A DNA stretch of 64,000 nt from assembly GCA_023957975.1 (NCBI GenBank), contig JAMLGM010000001.1, forward strand, positions 1-64,000, read 5' to 3'. The notes under the pieces were generated by a model. The model searched no databases and was not told the origin of the DNA. It saw only the letters and a list, made by a program, of their open reading frames with translations. Positions 47 through 60,821 of this stretch are shown here, in pieces. This DNA is from Microthrixaceae bacterium. GTDB lineage: Bacteria; Actinomycetota; Acidimicrobiia; Acidimicrobiales; Microtrichaceae. The position numbers and the translations under genes were made by a program. Positions within the stretch are counted from its first letter, which is position 1; every line of letters begins with the position of its first letter.

Positions 47-225
47 GACCGTCGCGTTTTGGCGGCGGGAGGAATACGGCTAATTGAGGCGAATGACTCA
101 GATTTGATACCTCGTGATCTTGCATGTGTCATGCGTGGTGACATTTCTGGTAATTGGTCACATTCACGAGAATTTTCCACCTGGATGGCGCGGAAACCCG
201 ATTTCTGCGGCCTAGCATGGACCTT

Positions 226-5235: not shown

Positions 5236-6050
5236 GGTGCTGAATATCCTCCGTCGACGACGACCGCCGAGCCGGTTTGCCATCGGGACGCGTCACTTGC
5301 CAGATAGTCATAGGCCCCGACGAGATCCGCGGCGGTGCCGAGTCCGAGCGGGTGTTTCGCGGCGATGGTGTCGATGGCCTGTTGGGGCAATTGTTCGTGG
5401 ATCGCTGAGCGAAACGTTCCGGGGCACACGCAGTTCACCCGGATGTTGTCGCGGCTGTATTCGACCGCCGCAACCTTGGCGAGTTGGATGACCGCCGCCT
5501 TGGTCGCACAGTACGGCGCGGCGTGAGACCATGCGGTCAGCCCCGACACCGATGCGGTCAGGATGATCGAGCCGGATCGCCGCTCGCGCATCGAGGGCAC
5601 GACCGCGGAGATGGCGTTGACCGCCCCCATGACGTTGACGTTGAAGGCCCGTTGCCAGTCTTCGGGCGTCAGGTTGTGGATCCGACCGTTGGGCGACAGC
5701 ACCCCGGCGTTGGAGATCATGGCGTCGACGGCGCCAAAGCGTTCGAGCGCGAGATCGACCACCGCCTGCACGGCGGCCGGTTCGCTGACATCCGCGAGCC
5801 GGGTGGCGAGGTTGACGGAGTCACCTGTGGCCTCAATGGCGTCGAGGGTTGCGCTGAGGGAGGCGTCGCTGAGGTCGCTCAAGACGAGGTTTGTCGCCGG
5901 GTCGGCGGCGAAGTGGGTGGCGAGCGCGGCGCCGAGCGAGCCGCCCGCTCCGGTGATGACGACGGTGCGTCGAGCCGAGTTCGGGGTCGGGGTCGAGTCA
6001 GTGTCAGAGTCAGAGTCAGAGTCAGAGTCAGAGTCAGAGTTGCTGGTCAT
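5232..6050 (-). CDS. Short-chain dehydrogenase/reductase with Ser-Asp repeat N-terminus
   Basis: A 272-residue classical SDR, probably NAD(P)-dependent oxidation or reduction of a hydroxyl/keto group. The cofactor motif TGAGGSLG, SNAG and the catalytic Tyr-Lys in YCATK are present; the C-terminus ends in the usual VVVDGGY. The start at 6050 gives an N-terminal tail of alternating Ser-Asp encoded by a 6-bp microsatellite, before the Rossmann fold begins near residue 32. Start and stop overlap the flanking genes by 4 bp each (ATGA), showing a tight operon. The second SDR of this operon (at 6047) suggests two successive oxidation steps on related intermediates. Confidence 0.85.
   Translation of the reverse strand: MTSNSDSDSDSDSDSDTDSTPTPNSARRTVVITGAGGSLGAALATHFAADPATNLVLSDLSDASLSATLDAIEATGDSVNLATRLADVSEPAAVQAVVDLALERFGAVDAMISNAGVLSPNGRIHNLTPEDWQRAFNVNVMGAVNAISAVVPSMRERRSGSIILTASVSGLTAWSHAAPYCATKAAVIQLAKVAAVEYSRDNIRVNCVCPGTFRSAIHEQLPQQAIDTIAAKHPLGLGTAADLVGAYDYLASDASRWQTGSAVVVDGGYSAP
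6005..6040. repeat. Hexanucleotide microsatellite in SDR gene
   Basis: Six perfect copies of CAGAGT on the plus strand (6005-6040), read on the minus strand as Ser-Asp codons at the N-terminus of the SDR. Changes in copy number would stay in frame. Confidence 0.9.
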
Positions 6051-32118: not shown

Positions 32119-33480
32119 ATGGTCGTGACTCACGCGTGGTCGAAACAGCCGATTCCGTATGCGGTCGAGGTGCCGGATCGGGCGCCGAAGGAGCGCTACT
32201 ACAGCCAGGAGTTCTTCGATCTCGAGGCCGAGCAGCTGTGGTCGCGGACCTGGCAGATGGCCTGTCGTCTCGAAGAGATCCCCGAACCCGGCGACTTCAG
32301 CGTCTATGAGATTCTCGACCAGTCGGTGATCGTCATCCGCGGCGAGGACGGCGAGATCCGGGCGATGCACAACACGTGTCGTCACCGTGGGGTGAAGCTG
32401 GCGACCGCGCCGGGCAACTGCGCCAAGGAATTCGTCTGCCCGTTTCATGGCTGGTGTTACGACCAAAGCGGGCGCAACACGAAGATCCCGATGCGTAAGT
32501 CGTTTGCGCAGCACAACATCGACGCGGATGACGTGAGCCTCGCCCCGGTTCAGTGCGATACGTGGGGTGGGTGTGTGTGGATCAACCTCGACCCCGAGGC
32601 GCCGCCGCTGCGTGAGTCGATCGAGCCGGCGGCGAGCATCCTCGATGCGTGGAAGGTCGAGGATCTGCGGGTCGAGTGGTGGTACGCGTGCCGCCTTCCG
32701 GTGAACTGGAAGCTGGCCCAGCAGGCGTTTCAGGAGATGTACCACGTCGTGGTCACCCACCCTCAGCTCGTCATCGCGGGGATGCGATACGGCGCGCAAC
32801 ACGGCGAGTTCGACCCCAAACGCTTCGTCGACGCCGAGATCCAGTACCTGCACACGATGAGCGAGGGCATGGCGGGGATGGTGCACGCCACCGACGTCGC
32901 GGTTGCGGAGTCGATCCGCGACATCGACCTGCCCGCCGACCCGGCCGCGGCCATGGCGGCGTGGTACCTGGCGCTCAATACCGCTGTGGTCGAGCATCAT
33001 CGCAGCCTCGGCCACGAGGTTCCCGACCTCGTCGACCTCGAGGCCAAGGGGCTCGCCGAGCCGATGGGCTACGTGTTCCCGCACTACTTCGTGTTGCCGA
33101 TGTATTCGAGCGCGTCCTCCTATCGCTTCCGCCCGGTCGGGCCCGAGGAGACGATCATGGAGATCTGGTCGATGACCCGGTATCCCTCCGACGCCGAACG
33201 GCCTCGCCCGGTCCCGCCGGAGATCTGGCCACACGACGATCCGCGTTGGCCCCCGATTCCGGCGCAGGACTTCTCGAACCTGCCGCGTCAACAACTCGGG
33301 CTGCACTCGAAGGCCTTCGAGTTCATGCGACTGTCGCAGACGGGGGAGGGCCACCTGTCGAACTTCGAACGGGTCCTCGACGGGTTCCTCGCCGGGTTGC
33401 CCCACGACCGGCTCGCTTCGGCGCTTCGTGAGGTGAACGTCAACCCGCTCGAACGCCACGTCGTCGATATCGAGTTCTGA
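32119..33480 (+). CDS. Rieske non-heme iron oxygenase, alpha subunit
   Basis: A 453-residue ring-hydroxylating oxygenase large subunit. The Rieske [2Fe-2S] ligands are C87/H89 in CRHRG and C107/H110 in CPFHGW. The mononuclear iron site is H209 and H214 in EMYHVVVTHP, with a later acidic ligand. GGGGG lies just upstream of the start. There is no small beta subunit or reductase beside it; the only ferredoxin-type reductase of the window is at 57506. Substrates of similar enzymes include aromatic acids and steroids. Confidence 0.92.
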   Translation: MVVTHAWSKQPIPYAVEVPDRAPKERYYSQEFFDLEAEQLWSRTWQMACRLEEIPEPGDFSVYEILDQSVIVIRGEDGEIRAMHNTCRHRGVKLATAPGNCAKEFVCPFHGWCYDQSGRNTKIPMRKSFAQHNIDADDVSLAPVQCDTWGGCVWINLDPEAPPLRESIEPAASILDAWKVEDLRVEWWYACRLPVNWKLAQQAFQEMYHVVVTHPQLVIAGMRYGAQHGEFDPKRFVDAEIQYLHTMSEGMAGMVHATDVAVAESIRDIDLPADPAAAMAAWYLALNTAVVEHHRSLGHEVPDLVDLEAKGLAEPMGYVFPHYFVLPMYSSASSYRFRPVGPEETIMEIWSMTRYPSDAERPRPVPPEIWPHDDPRWPPIPAQDFSNLPRQQLGLHSKAFEFMRLSQTGEGHLSNFERVLDGFLAGLPHDRLASALREVNVNPLERHVVDIEF

Positions 33481-53211: not shown

Positions 53212-53267
53212 CCTGTTCTCCGATAACCAGTGGTCGTGATCACGACCACTGGTTATCGGAGAACAGG
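53212..53267. repeat. Palindromic repeat family B, copy 2
   Basis: A perfect 56-bp palindrome starting CCTGTTCTCCGATAACCAGT, centre TGATCA. It lies 17 bp after the LLM gene stop. The arm contains CCGATAACCAGTGGTCG, shared with copies at 26892 and 55035. Confidence 0.9.
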
Positions 53268-53373: not shown

Positions 53374-54660
53374 ATGGCACATTTCCCGAAACCACCTGAG
53401 GGCAGCTGGACCGAGCATTTCGGCCTCGACACTGCTCCCGTCTCCTACGACGACTCGATCACCGAAGAGCACTACCAGCTCGAACAGGCGGCGATCTTTC
53501 AAAAGACGTGGCTCAATGTCGGTCGTGTCGAACAGCTGCCCCGCACCGGCGCCTACTTCACCAAGGAACTCGACGCCGCGGGCACCTCGATCATCGTGGT
53601 GCGCGACGCCAAGGGCACCTCACGGGCCTTCCACAACGTGTGTCGCCACCGCGGCAACAAGTTGGTCTGGCAGGACTACCCGCGCGAGGAAACCTCGGGA
53701 AGCTGCCGGCAGTTCACCTGCAAGTACCACGGGTGGCGTTACGACCTCGAAGGCGCCCTCACCTTTGTTCAGCAACAGGAGGAGTTCTTCGACCTCGACA
53801 TGGCCGAGTTCGGCCTGGTGCCGGTTCGCTGCGAGACCTGGGAAGGGTTCATCTTCGTCAATTTCGACGACGAGGCAGCGCCGCTGCGCGACTACATGGG
53901 CCGCCTCGGCGCCGGTATCGAGGGATACCCGTTCGAAAAGCTGACTCAGGTGCACAAGTTCCGTGCCGAGGTCGGGTCGAACTGGAAGCTGTTCATCGAC
54001 GCGTTCATGGAGTTCTACCACGCGCCGATTCTGCACGCGAAGCAGGCGGTGGCCGAGGAGTCGGTGAAGCTGCAGGGCTACGGGTACGAGGCACTTCACT
54101 ACGACATCGACGGGCCGCATTCGCTGATCTCGTCCTGGGGTGGGATGTCGCCGCCCAAGGATCTCAGCATGGTCAAGCCGATCGAGCGGGTGCTGCGCAG
54201 CGGCCTGTTCGGGGTGTGGGACGCACCGGATCTCGGCATCGACGAGTTGCCGGCGGGCCTCAATCCGTCCGGCAGCAAGTCGTGGGGTGAGGACTCGTTC
54301 CTGTTCTTCCCGAACTTCATGATCCTGATCTGGAAGCCGAACTGGTACCTCACCTACCACTACTGGCCGACCTCGCATAGCAGCCACATCTTCGAGGGCA
54401 CGCTGTATTTCGTCCCGCCGACGAACGCATACGAGCGGCTGCAGCAGGAACTCGCCTCGGTGACCTTCAAGGAGTACGCACTCCAGGACGCCAACACCCT
54501 CGAGGCCACCCAGACCATGATCGAAAACGGCGTGGTCGAGACGTTCCCGTTGTGCGACCAAGAGGTGATGCTGCGTCACCTGCACACCGTCGCCCGCAAG
54601 TACGTCGATGACCACCTGAGCGAGACCGGCACGACCGTTCGCATCTCGGCGGCGAGCTGA
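53374..54660 (+). CDS. Rieske non-heme iron oxygenase, alpha subunit
   Basis: A 428-residue ring-hydroxylating oxygenase large subunit. Rieske ligands are C90/H92 in CRHRG and C116/H119 in CKYHGW; mononuclear iron ligands are H216 and H221 in MEFYHAPILHAK. There is no classical beta subunit; instead a 108-residue protein follows 11 bp later. The KshB-like reductase in the converging operon (57506) could supply electrons. Not closely similar to the Rieske protein at 32119. Confidence 0.93.
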   Translation: MAHFPKPPEGSWTEHFGLDTAPVSYDDSITEEHYQLEQAAIFQKTWLNVGRVEQLPRTGAYFTKELDAAGTSIIVVRDAKGTSRAFHNVCRHRGNKLVWQDYPREETSGSCRQFTCKYHGWRYDLEGALTFVQQQEEFFDLDMAEFGLVPVRCETWEGFIFVNFDDEAAPLRDYMGRLGAGIEGYPFEKLTQVHKFRAEVGSNWKLFIDAFMEFYHAPILHAKQAVAEESVKLQGYGYEALHYDIDGPHSLISSWGGMSPPKDLSMVKPIERVLRSGLFGVWDAPDLGIDELPAGLNPSGSKSWGEDSFLFFPNFMILIWKPNWYLTYHYWPTSHSSHIFEGTLYFVPPTNAYERLQQELASVTFKEYALQDANTLEATQTMIENGVVETFPLCDQEVMLRHLHTVARKYVDDHLSETGTTVRISAAS

Positions 54661-54671
54661 AGGAGTATCCG

Positions 54672-54998
54672 ATGAGCAAGCTTCCTGCACAATTCTCCGC
54701 CCTCGAGCCGTACGCCGACTGGGCGTTGCCGAGCGAGACCGACCGCTACGCCAAACGACTCGCCTCGACCATGGACGAGTTGCAAGCCTTCTATGACGTG
54801 GCCTTCCCGGCGCTCACCGACAGCGTCGAGTACCTGAAGTCGGTGAGCCTGGAGGACATCTCCGAGGAGAATCAGAACCTGCTGTGGTTGTTCTCCTCGC
54901 TGGTGACGGTGTCGTTCCCGGTCGAGGTATGGCGCCAGCCGCGTGTTCCCGAGAGTGGCGCGGCCGAGGTCAACATCATCGTCGAACCGGTGCCATAA
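54672..54998 (+). CDS. Small acidic protein coupled to Rieske oxygenase
   Basis: 108 residues, no family recognised: acidic, helix-rich (ETDRYAKRLASTMDELQAFYDVAFPALTDSVEYLKSV), ending with EVNIIVEPVP. AAGGAG precedes the start and the gap to the oxygenase is 11 bp, so they are co-translated. It has no Cys pair, no NTF2 pattern and no signal peptide. An assembly or regulatory partner of the oxygenase is a reasonable inference. Confidence 0.75.
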   Translation: MSKLPAQFSALEPYADWALPSETDRYAKRLASTMDELQAFYDVAFPALTDSVEYLKSVSLEDISEENQNLLWLFSSLVTVSFPVEVWRQPRVPESGAAEVNIIVEPVP

Positions 54999-55034: not shown

Positions 55035-55084
55035 GTTCTCCGATAACCAGTGGTCGTGATCACGACCACTGGTTATCGGAGAAC
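55035..55084. repeat. Palindromic repeat family B, copy 3
   Basis: A perfect 50-bp palindrome, identical to the core of the copy at 53212 (arm GTTCTCCGATAACCAGTG). Lies between convergent stops at 54998 and 55111. Confidence 0.9.
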
Positions 55085-57505: not shown

Positions 57506-58606
57506 CTAGAAGTTCTCGTATTCGACGGTCACGACCGGGCCCTGTGGCAAGGCCTGGCAGGTGAGGACCCACCCTTCGGCCACCTCCTCAGGAGTGAGGG
57601 CGTTGTTGACGCGCATCGTCGCCGACCCCTCGGTCACCAACGCCATGCAGGTGGCGCAGTTGCCGGCCTCGCAGGAGAACGGCGCTGCCAGTCCGCCCCG
57701 CCGTGAGGTCTCAAGAATTGTGTCGCCGGGTTGATAGGCGATTTCGGTTCGCTTGCCCTTGAGGATGATGTTGACCGTGGCGGTCACCTCGGCGGTCACC
57801 TCGGCGTCGCCGGCGCCGCCCTCGCCCTGGCCCTGGCTCGTCGCAGCGACCTCCGCCGCGTTCTGGCCGGCGTTGATGAAGCGCTCGATGGAGATGTTCG
57901 ACGGGTCGACGCCACGGCTCAACAGGTGGGCCTCGACGAGATCCATGAACGGTGTCGGGCCACAGATATAGAAGTCGGCGTCGAGGTCGTCGCCCAGGAA
58001 CCCGTCGAGGTCGACGGGGGAGAGGTACCCCGACTCGGCATCGAGGTGGTGAGCGAGGTCGAATCGGTCGGAGTGGTCCACGGCGAGACACTCGAGCACC
58101 TCGGCGAAGATCACCGAGGCCGCGTCGCGATTCGCGCACAACAACCGAACCGGACGCTTGCCGGAGTTCAGCGTGCTCTTGGCGATGGACAGCACCGGGG
58201 TGATCCCGCTGCCGCCCCCGAACGCGACGATGGGCCGACGAGCATCGACCGTCTCCGCTGCCACGAACACCCCGGCCGGTCGGGTGGCCTCCAAGACGTC
58301 GCCGACCGCCACGTGGTCGTGCATCCAGTTCGACACGAGTCCGCCGGGAACACGCTTGACCGTGATGGTGAGCGCGTCGTCGGTGTCGGGTGCGCTCGAC
58401 ATCGAGTACGAACGCAGGCATTCGACACCGTCAATGCTGAAACGAAAGGTGCAGAACTGCCCGGCGCGATAGCGGAACAATTCGGCTGCGTCGGTGAGGA
58501 TGTCGAAGCGAAACGATCGGGCATCGGCCGTCTCGTCGACGAGTTCGACGACGCGCAGCGGGTGGAACCCGTGGGTGGCGCGAACGGCGTCGTGATCGAC
58601 GCTCAC
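57506..58606 (-). CDS. Ferredoxin-NAD(P)H-type reductase with C-terminal [2Fe-2S] (KshB/Hmp-like)
   Basis: A 366-residue single-chain reductase passing electrons from NAD(P)H through FAD and a plant-type [2Fe-2S] to an oxygenase. FAD motif RSYSMSS, nucleotide motifs FGGGSGITP and CGPTPFM, and iron-sulfur ligands in CEAGNCATC plus a distal Cys in VLTCQ are present. A Gly/Ala/Glu-rich linker joins the two parts. Order and domains match 3-ketosteroid 9-alpha-hydroxylase reductase. GTG 58606 overlaps the LLM stop. A likely partner for the P450 or Rieske proteins nearby. Confidence 0.9.
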   Translation of the reverse strand: MSVDHDAVRATHGFHPLRVVELVDETADARSFRFDILTDAAELFRYRAGQFCTFRFSIDGVECLRSYSMSSAPDTDDALTITVKRVPGGLVSNWMHDHVAVGDVLEATRPAGVFVAAETVDARRPIVAFGGGSGITPVLSIAKSTLNSGKRPVRLLCANRDAASVIFAEVLECLAVDHSDRFDLAHHLDAESGYLSPVDLDGFLGDDLDADFYICGPTPFMDLVEAHLLSRGVDPSNISIERFINAGQNAAEVAATSQGQGEGGAGDAEVTAEVTATVNIILKGKRTEIAYQPGDTILETSRRGGLAAPFSCEAGNCATCMALVTEGSATMRVNNALTPEEVAEGWVLTCQALPQGPVVTVEYENF

Positions 58607-59559
58607 AGGAACGCTTCTTCGAACAGGCGCAGATGCTCCCAGGCCAACTCCGGGGGGATGCCGCCCACCATCGGGTGCAACACCGCGAACATCGCGCCGG
58701 TGCGTTCGAGTTCGTCGCGGTACTGGTCGGGGGTGAGGACCTGGTACTGCCCGCCGGCACGTACCTCCTCGAGCGTCTCAACGGGCCGGTACTTGTCGTC
58801 GCCGGCCATCGGGTTCCACGCGCCGTACGCATTCGATTCGTGGATGAAATACGGGGCGAGTTTCGGCCATGCCACCTCGGGGTCCTCGGCGAGGATCGTC
58901 ACCGCCGCGTTCGCCCCGCTACCCGGACCGGGGTCGGGCTTTCCGAGCTTGAGGCACTCGTCGCGGTAGTGCTGCCAGCATTCGGGGTCCGAGGGCACGA
59001 ATCCATCCGCGATCCGCGCGGCGCGACGGGCCGCGGGTTCACTGCTTCCCCCGAGGATGATCGAGGGTCCTCCGCTTTGAGCCGGAGTCGGCAGCACCTG
59101 AACCGTTCGACCACGGAACTCGAAGGGTTCGCCGGTCCATGCCTGGCGAAGTGCGGCTACGGCCTCGCGCACCCGGGCCGGTCGCTCGGATAATTCGACA
59201 CCAAACATGTCGAATTCGTGCTCGGCGTACCCGCCGGCGAAGGTGACGTGCAGCCGACCGTTCGCGATGCGGTCGACCACGGCGATGTCCTCGGCCAGGC
59301 GCAACGGATCGTGAAAGGGGATGGGCATGGCGTTGATGGCGATCGCCACCGAGGAGGTGCGCGCCGCCATCGCGGCGGCCATTACGAGCGGGCTCGGCAG
59401 ATATCCGTCCTCGCTGCCGTGATGCTCGGACAACGACACCGCGAGTGCACCGTTGCGCTCACCCCACTCCGTCATCTGCAGCGCGGCCTCATAGCGATCG
59501 GCGAGGTCGACCCCCGAGAAGGCCGGGTTGCGAAGGTCGAATCGAAGCAGGAACAACAT
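58603..59559 (-). CDS. LLM-class flavin-dependent oxidoreductase
   Basis: A 318-residue luciferase-like monooxygenase: VSLSEHHGSEDGYLPSPLVMAAAMAART is the family hallmark, with GRLHVTFAGGYAEHEFDMFG and IILGGSSEPAARRAARIADGF. The start at 59559 overlaps the amidohydrolase stop by one base (TGATG). Probably FMNH2- or F420-linked. Part of the P450 operon. Confidence 0.9.
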   Translation of the reverse strand: MLFLLRFDLRNPAFSGVDLADRYEAALQMTEWGERNGALAVSLSEHHGSEDGYLPSPLVMAAAMAARTSSVAIAINAMPIPFHDPLRLAEDIAVVDRIANGRLHVTFAGGYAEHEFDMFGVELSERPARVREAVAALRQAWTGEPFEFRGRTVQVLPTPAQSGGPSIILGGSSEPAARRAARIADGFVPSDPECWQHYRDECLKLGKPDPGPGSGANAAVTILAEDPEVAWPKLAPYFIHESNAYGAWNPMAGDDKYRPVETLEEVRAGGQYQVLTPDQYRDELERTGAMFAVLHPMVGGIPPELAWEHLRLFEEAFL

Positions 59560-60821
59560 CAGCGGCCTCCAGGGGCGTCGTTGCGGAAGATCTCGCCGCC
59601 CTTCATGACGAAACACACCCGCTCGACCGCGGTGATGTCGGCGAGCGGGTTGCCCGCCACGGCGATGACGTCCGCGAGCAGGCCCGCCTCGAGGGCACCG
59701 CGGTCGTCGACGTCGATCAGTTCCGCAGCCACGAGTGTCGCTGCCTGCAACGCCTGCAGCGGAGTCATGCCCCGGTCGACCAGCGCGACGAGCTCCTTGG
59801 CATTGCGGCCGTGGGGGATGGCCGGTGCGTCGGTGCCACAGGCGATTCGAGCGCCTGCAGCGATGGCCTTGGAAATGGTGGCCTTCGCCCGTGGGAACAC
59901 CTCGGCCGCCTTGGCCTGGAGTTCCTTGGGAGCGTGCGACACGTCCATGCCGTCCGCCAGATAGGTGGTCGGAACCAGGAACGTCTCTTGAGCGACGAAC
60001 CGTTCGAGCGTGTCGTCGCTCATGAGTGAGCCGTGTTCGATGCAGTCGAATCCGGCGGCGAGCGCAGCGCGGATGCCGTCGTCGCCGTGGGCGTGTGCGG
60101 CCACCTTCAGCCCGGCGCGATGTGCCTCGTCGGCGATCGCGGCGAGTTCTTCATCGGAGTACTGCTGCGCGCCGGCCGGTCCGGTATGTGACATGACCCC
60201 GCCCGAGGCGCACACCTTGATGACTTGAGCCCCGTGCTTGATCTGATAGCGCACTGCCTTGCGGACCTCATCGACGCCGTTGGCGATGCCCTCCTCGACG
60301 GTAAGGGGCAACACGTGCGGGGCGAATGCCTGGAACATCGTCGGGTCGAGGTGTCCCCCGGTCGGGCAGATGGCGTGTCCTGCCGACACGACGCGGGGCC
60401 CCTCGAACCACCCCCGGTCGATGGCCTTCGCCAACGCGACGTCCAACAGGATCCCGTTGGTCTGGATGAACAGTCCCAGATTGCGCACGGTGGTGAACCC
60501 GGCGCGCAGTGTGCGTTTGCCGTTGACGACGCCGCGAAGTGTCCGGGTCGCCGGGTCTTCCTGTACGGCGGTGAGGGGGCTGGCGTGATCCGGGCCGCCG
60601 AGAAAGAGGTTGACCTCCATATCCATGAGGCCGGGCAACAAGGTGACGTCGCCGAGGTCGATGGTGACGGTGCCGTCGGGCAGGGCCGTGGGGGAGACCT
60701 CGGCGATGCGGTCGTCGATGATGAGCAGCGAGCCGGGTTCGACGAGTTCCCCCGATCTGATGTCGACCATGGCAGCGCTGCGCAGATGGGTCGGATGCTC
60801 GCGTGTGCGACGTCGCGCCAC
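59559..60821 (-). CDS. Imidazolonepropionase-like amidohydrolase lacking the HxH motif
   Basis: A 420-residue amidohydrolase-superfamily protein. The fold is clear: LPGLMDM, KVCASGGVMSHTG with the position of the bridging Lys, AAHAHGDDGIRAA, CIEHGSLMSD and ACGTDAPAIPHG. However, the first metal motif, usually DMHVHL, reads DMEVNL, so both His are replaced (Glu and Asn). Either it is a subfamily with one metal or a changed function. GTG 60821 with AGGAG upstream. Second gene of the P450 operon. Confidence 0.85.
   Translation of the reverse strand: MARRRTREHPTHLRSAAMVDIRSGELVEPGSLLIIDDRIAEVSPTALPDGTVTIDLGDVTLLPGLMDMEVNLFLGGPDHASPLTAVQEDPATRTLRGVVNGKRTLRAGFTTVRNLGLFIQTNGILLDVALAKAIDRGWFEGPRVVSAGHAICPTGGHLDPTMFQAFAPHVLPLTVEEGIANGVDEVRKAVRYQIKHGAQVIKVCASGGVMSHTGPAGAQQYSDEELAAIADEAHRAGLKVAAHAHGDDGIRAALAAGFDCIEHGSLMSDDTLERFVAQETFLVPTTYLADGMDVSHAPKELQAKAAEVFPRAKATISKAIAAGARIACGTDAPAIPHGRNAKELVALVDRGMTPLQALQAATLVAAELIDVDDRGALEAGLLADVIAVAGNPLADITAVERVCFVMKGGEIFRNDAPGGR

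Follow-up and report, generated by a model that had tools for sequence, protein, structure and literature searches.

The degradation of many pollutants, steroids and amines begins with a Rieske oxygenase, and these enzymes are sought-after biocatalysts. A 2025 review groups the structurally characterised members into the quaternary types α3, α3β3, α3α′3 and α3α3 (PMC12445004), from which a helical second subunit is absent. The carnitine monooxygenase CntA is listed as an α3 enzyme with no further subunit (PMC12445004), and the β subunits of the α3β3 enzymes are non-catalytic, contributing to hexamer stability and to docking of the electron donor (PMC12445004, PMC9361823). We found no description in the open-access literature of an accessory or third Rieske oxygenase subunit, nor of the small protein presented here.

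We analysed a window of 64,000 nucleotides from the genome of a Microthrixaceae bacterium, in which a gene for a Rieske oxygenase α subunit is followed by a small gene (Table 1). The α protein matches the Pfam families Rieske (PF00355, 3.6e-15) and Ring_hydroxyl_A (PF00848, 3.3e-33). Its Rieske CxH...CxxH motif is complete (C90, H92, C116 and H119), and the iron ligands H216, H221 and D372 of the catalytic domain are conserved together with the bridging acid E213, all of these roles being assigned by homology. CntA (PDB 6Y8J, 6Y9C and 6Y9D) is the best sequence match in the PDB (7.6e-28). The two share the D-x3-E-x2-H-x4-H motif, identical in the aligned CntA and with a glutamate at the bridging position, as well as a PaaE/GbcB-type reductase encoded near α. 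However, the match spans mainly residues 32–224, and the α subunit here is 428 residues long and, unlike CntA, is accompanied by a gene for a helical partner. Within NCBIfam, α scores highest against the glycine betaine monooxygenase GbcA (NF058607), at 125.7 bits against a cut-off of 670 bits; since this is far below the family threshold, α is, by its score, a member of a subfamily different from GbcA. For the nearby reductase GbcB (NF058606) ranks second after PaaE, with 188.3 against a cut-off of 500 bits, so this protein is not GbcB. The α subunits of the clade are annotated in the databases just as 'aromatic ring-hydroxylating dioxygenase subunit alpha'. The second and only other Rieske oxygenase α of the genome, of 453 residues, also lies in the window (32119–33480, forward strand) and is without a small partner.

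Table 1 Features of the oxygenase locus and of the small protein (window positions, unless given as residues).
Feature	Position	Strand	Basis and remarks
Upstream perfect 48-bp palindrome	53216–53263		Genome-wide repeat; boundary, outside the system
Rieske non-heme iron oxygenase α subunit	53374–54660	+	Domain matches and ligand residues; intact, ATG at 53374, TGA at 54658–54660; 428 aa
Shine-Dalgarno AGGAG of the small gene	54662–54666	+	Read directly; 5-nt spacer
Helical partner protein, unnamed family	54672–54998	+	ORF, homologues, structure model; ATG at 54672, TAA at 54996–54998; 108 aa
Downstream 48-bp palindrome, identical to the first	55036–55083		Genome-wide repeat
FAD / NAD(P)H / plant-type [2Fe-2S] reductase, PaaE/GbcB-like	57506–58606	-	Domain and family matches
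Amidohydrolase	59559–60821	-	Among pathway genes, the best-conserved neighbour of the pair in Actinomycetota
Helices of the small protein	residues 6–17, 22–31, 34–56, 65–87		AlphaFold2 model
Conserved C-terminal segment of the small protein	residues 83–108		Alignment

The original prediction placed the small gene 11 bp 3′ of the oxygenase with a ribosome site of its own, and both the 11-nt gap after the α stop codon and the AGGAG bear this out. Its further claim, that the product has no known domain, agrees with our searches: the window protein belongs to no Pfam or NCBIfam family, and 60 members of its family searched against Pfam and NCBIfam at E ≤ 10 gave nothing convincing, only scattered matches with E of 0.006 or worse. 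A profile of the family found no credible sequence relative in the PDB (best E of 0.4), and a match of the single sequence to a light-harvesting PDB entry (0.0026) was dropped, as the profile search did not reproduce it. The gene is present in a single copy in its own genome. We identified 76 homologues on contigs of other genomes, from Acidimicrobiia, Mycobacterium, Streptomyces, Nocardia, Actinomadura, Parafrankia and others, which in annotated records appear as 'hypothetical protein'; the reading frame is therefore no product of chance. Ten columns are invariant across 60 diverse sequences. When six distant sequences (five proteobacterial and one from Rhodococcus) are aligned with these, all six retain P5, L11, E12, W17, R25, R29, L70 and E85. 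The protein is acidic (pI 4.2). Across 88 sequences there is no conserved cysteine or histidine column, and cysteine is altogether absent from 14 of them.

The AlphaFold2 model of the small protein, built with 60 relatives, consists of four helices (mean pLDDT of 91.6) with no strand in the monomer. Confidence is lower for the final 20 residues (block means of 68 and 77), which the model leaves without regular structure. The tail segment PVEVWRQPRVPDSGAA...EP is nevertheless among the best-conserved stretches in Actinomycetota; conservation in a tail that is modelled without structure of its own would be characteristic of a region that becomes ordered on binding a partner. Comparison of the model to known structures gave no convincing fold relative, with nothing below E=2 among solved PDB folds in Foldseek and a best VIA-align Z of 5.1, within the range of common helix arrangements. 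We also modelled both proteins as one chain, using a Streptomyces locus (L016) where the two genes lie in one frame and the TGA stop can be read as glycine, so that a natural linker joins the two proteins in an artificial fusion. Such read-through is a device for a single-chain predictor and says nothing on translation in the cell. The fusion model had few paired rows, a pTM of 0.73 and a weak α half (mean pLDDT of 70.5), so the relative placement of the two halves is not trustworthy. Within it, the α half has CntA as its best Foldseek match, and the small half keeps the four helices, with a short strand appearing in the tail.

The β subunits of the Ring_hydroxyl_B family have a mixed α/β NTF2-like fold of about 160–190 residues. 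The small protein is like the β subunits of naphthalene, biphenyl and cumene dioxygenase in being encoded next to α, but differs in its length of 108 residues, its all-helical structure and the lack of a match to the β-subunit family. We rejected it as a Ring_hydroxyl_B β subunit, given the missing Pfam match, the short chain and the four helices. Neither is it a Rieske or plant-type ferredoxin or a protein with a usual metal site, since no cysteine or histidine column is conserved that could hold a [2Fe-2S] cluster. On both points the all-helical model and the missing ligands confirm what had been proposed from the window sequence.

Comparison of genomes reveals that α and the small gene occur together, as the original prediction required of relatives: all 31 distinct whole-genome pairs and 14 of 14 distant plasmid records are paired. 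We sampled the phylum evenly with 296 genomes; these held 16 small genes and 16 α subunits above 350 bits, which form the identical 16 pairs; the next-best α subunits (≤146 bits) were without a small partner. Among 61 genomes of one actinobacterial family, 28 small genes and 28 α subunits were all paired in both directions, 13 of the pairs being common to both samples. The contig loci agree, with α adjoining the small gene in 73 of the 74 that have enough upstream sequence; two further loci end at a contig boundary and were left out of this count. Blastococcus (L012/L092) is the sole clear exception among the contig loci, its 58%-identical α lying elsewhere in the genome. The plasmid α subunits are only 29–36% identical to the window α and come mostly from Proteobacteria (hosts Sphingomonadales, Azospirillum, Paroceanicella, Acinetobacter, Variovorax, Burkholderia, Cupriavidus and Rhodococcus), and beside each of the 14 the profile recognises a small homologue even at low pairwise similarity. 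In at least four plasmid loci (L087, L100, L102 and L104) the small gene is 5′ rather than 3′ of α. The junctions are usually an ATGA overlap or a short gap, and no natural fusion was seen among the loci examined. Thus, the small gene is found beside nearly every tested member of one large Rieske oxygenase branch in two phyla.

Several loci show departures of their own. On a plasmid of Cupriavidus necator C39 (L084, ~5832–5921), the last ~27 residues of an α subunit directly precede an intact small gene; because this remnant of the α C-terminus is directly upstream, the orphan is a case of a deleted oxygenase whose partner was left behind. On a plasmid of Sphingomonas sp. NBWT7 (L111, 1702–2947), α is annotated as a Rieske piece and a catalytic piece followed by an intact small gene, and the α gene is apparently broken. 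One contig labelled as a Bifidobacterium breve MAG (L013) carries a pair typical of soil actinobacteria and is likely mis-binned or mislabelled.

We compared the trees of the two proteins, which correlate with r = 0.90 over 88 pairs, a share of this correlation being common species history. Two α–small pairs, in tandem or near-tandem, are present in L063, L064, L066–L069, L071–L073, L076 and L077 (Actinomadura, Nocardia, Parafrankia and others), and every α in these double loci has its own small gene. At nine loci with tandem pairs, the clades of the α paralogues correspond one to one with those of the small paralogues. In an α tree that includes partnerless members, midpoint-rooted and with few outgroup sequences, the partner-bearing α subunits group together, apart from four partnerless ones that include the second α of the window. 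The α subunit and the small protein are a conserved, co-evolving one-to-one gene pair. The whole-genome pairs, the distant plasmid records, the co-evolving trees and the presence of one partner per tandem paralogue make it very likely that the small protein serves this branch of oxygenases as a dedicated partner.

The window pair is flanked by two copies of a palindrome whose 40-bp core occurs 84 times in the 3.6-Mb genome (a control pattern gave 0 matches) and which resembles a repeat of the REP/MITE type or a regulatory one. Between these copies, α and the small gene probably form their own two-gene unit. The acyl-CoA, SDR, P450 and amidohydrolase genes that surround the pair point to a catabolic pathway whose substrate would be alicyclic or lipid-like, and the reductase is likely the electron donor of α. 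In Actinomycetota a similar amidohydrolase is near the pair in 63 of 78 loci, directly adjoining α in Blastococcus (L092), and may hint that the pathway passes through an amide or a lactam. Acyl-CoA dehydrogenases and the amidohydrolase are the neighbours in Actinomycetota; in Azospirillum and Paroceanicella they are cupins, an NTF2-like protein, a Rieske ferredoxin and an asparaginase. A dihydroxypyridine dioxygenase is nearby in Variovorax, a formamidase and an indole-type monooxygenase in Acinetobacter, and a PQQ dehydrogenase in Sphingomonas JE1. The electron donors near the pair also vary, being PaaE-like, of the PDR/VanB type, or a Rieske ferredoxin with a reductase. Since pathway neighbours and donors differ between lineages, the small protein belongs to the enzyme and not to one pathway. 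In four proteobacterial loci (L083, L087, L089 and L099) an NTF2/SnoaL-like protein and a Rieske ferredoxin accompany the pair; the former could be a dehydratase or, beside the small protein, a further subunit of β-like kind.

When a protein stays with one enzyme while pathway, donor and gene order all change, it most probably works on that enzyme or as a part of it. We propose, with a probability of roughly 0.6, that CntA/GbcA-like Rieske oxygenases of a distinct clade have a dedicated helical subunit without catalytic function, namely the small protein. The division of parts is consistent with this, as α holds all catalytic ligands and the small protein has no conserved metal ligand or known domain. 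The constancy of the small protein would equally fit a maturation factor or a coupling protein, which we rank behind the subunit in that order. A dedicated assembly or maturation factor would bind nascent or apo-α, during cluster insertion or trimer formation, and leave the mature enzyme. One small, acidic, helical protein with a conserved tail per α paralogue is what such a factor might look like, and all pairing data fit it; however, co-evolution with each paralogue is the expectation for a permanent subunit, and characterised Rieske α subunits are not known to need a dedicated maturase. We consider this explanation unlikely.

Less probable still is a coupling or regulatory component at the α surface that, in the manner of MmoB in soluble methane monooxygenase, governs how the donor docks or how substrate gates the flow of electrons and is dispensable for assembly. 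That the small gene is kept beside varied donors suits such a role, but a donor-specific docking factor should change or disappear with its donor, and the small protein does neither; the general fold searches brought up no resemblance to components of this kind. Last comes an operon mate that makes no contact with α and serves the pathway in its own right, as an enzyme or a binding protein. A shared operon alone is no proof of contact, and one genome, that of Blastococcus, has the two genes apart; against this, the pair persists amid unrelated pathway genes and swapped gene order, and each tandem α keeps its own small copy, which makes such a bystander very improbable.

As a dedicated subunit, the small protein would bind α, probably via the conserved C-terminal segment, which is mostly unstructured in the monomer model. 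It may stabilise the α trimer, shape the docking site of the electron donor, or both, as β does in the α3β3 enzymes. Electrons would pass from NAD(P)H to the FAD and then the [2Fe-2S] cluster of the PaaE/GbcB-like reductase, on to the Rieske cluster, and from there to the mononuclear iron of the neighbouring α. The chances are about even that these enzymes form a further class, α–γ (for example α3γ3). In this class, which would be spread widely through Actinomycetota and Pseudomonadota, an unrecognised helical subunit would replace or supplement β, and α subunits of the clade would appear inactive when expressed alone.

A whole clade of α subunits seems to have an obligatory partner that passes under the annotation 'hypothetical protein'. 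If this partner is a subunit, expression of the α subunits of the clade alone would fail, and the list of quaternary types would gain one. The role of non-catalytic Rieske subunits, in stability or donor docking, would then have a second, unrelated example, and the tandem double pairs offer a natural system for partner exchange.
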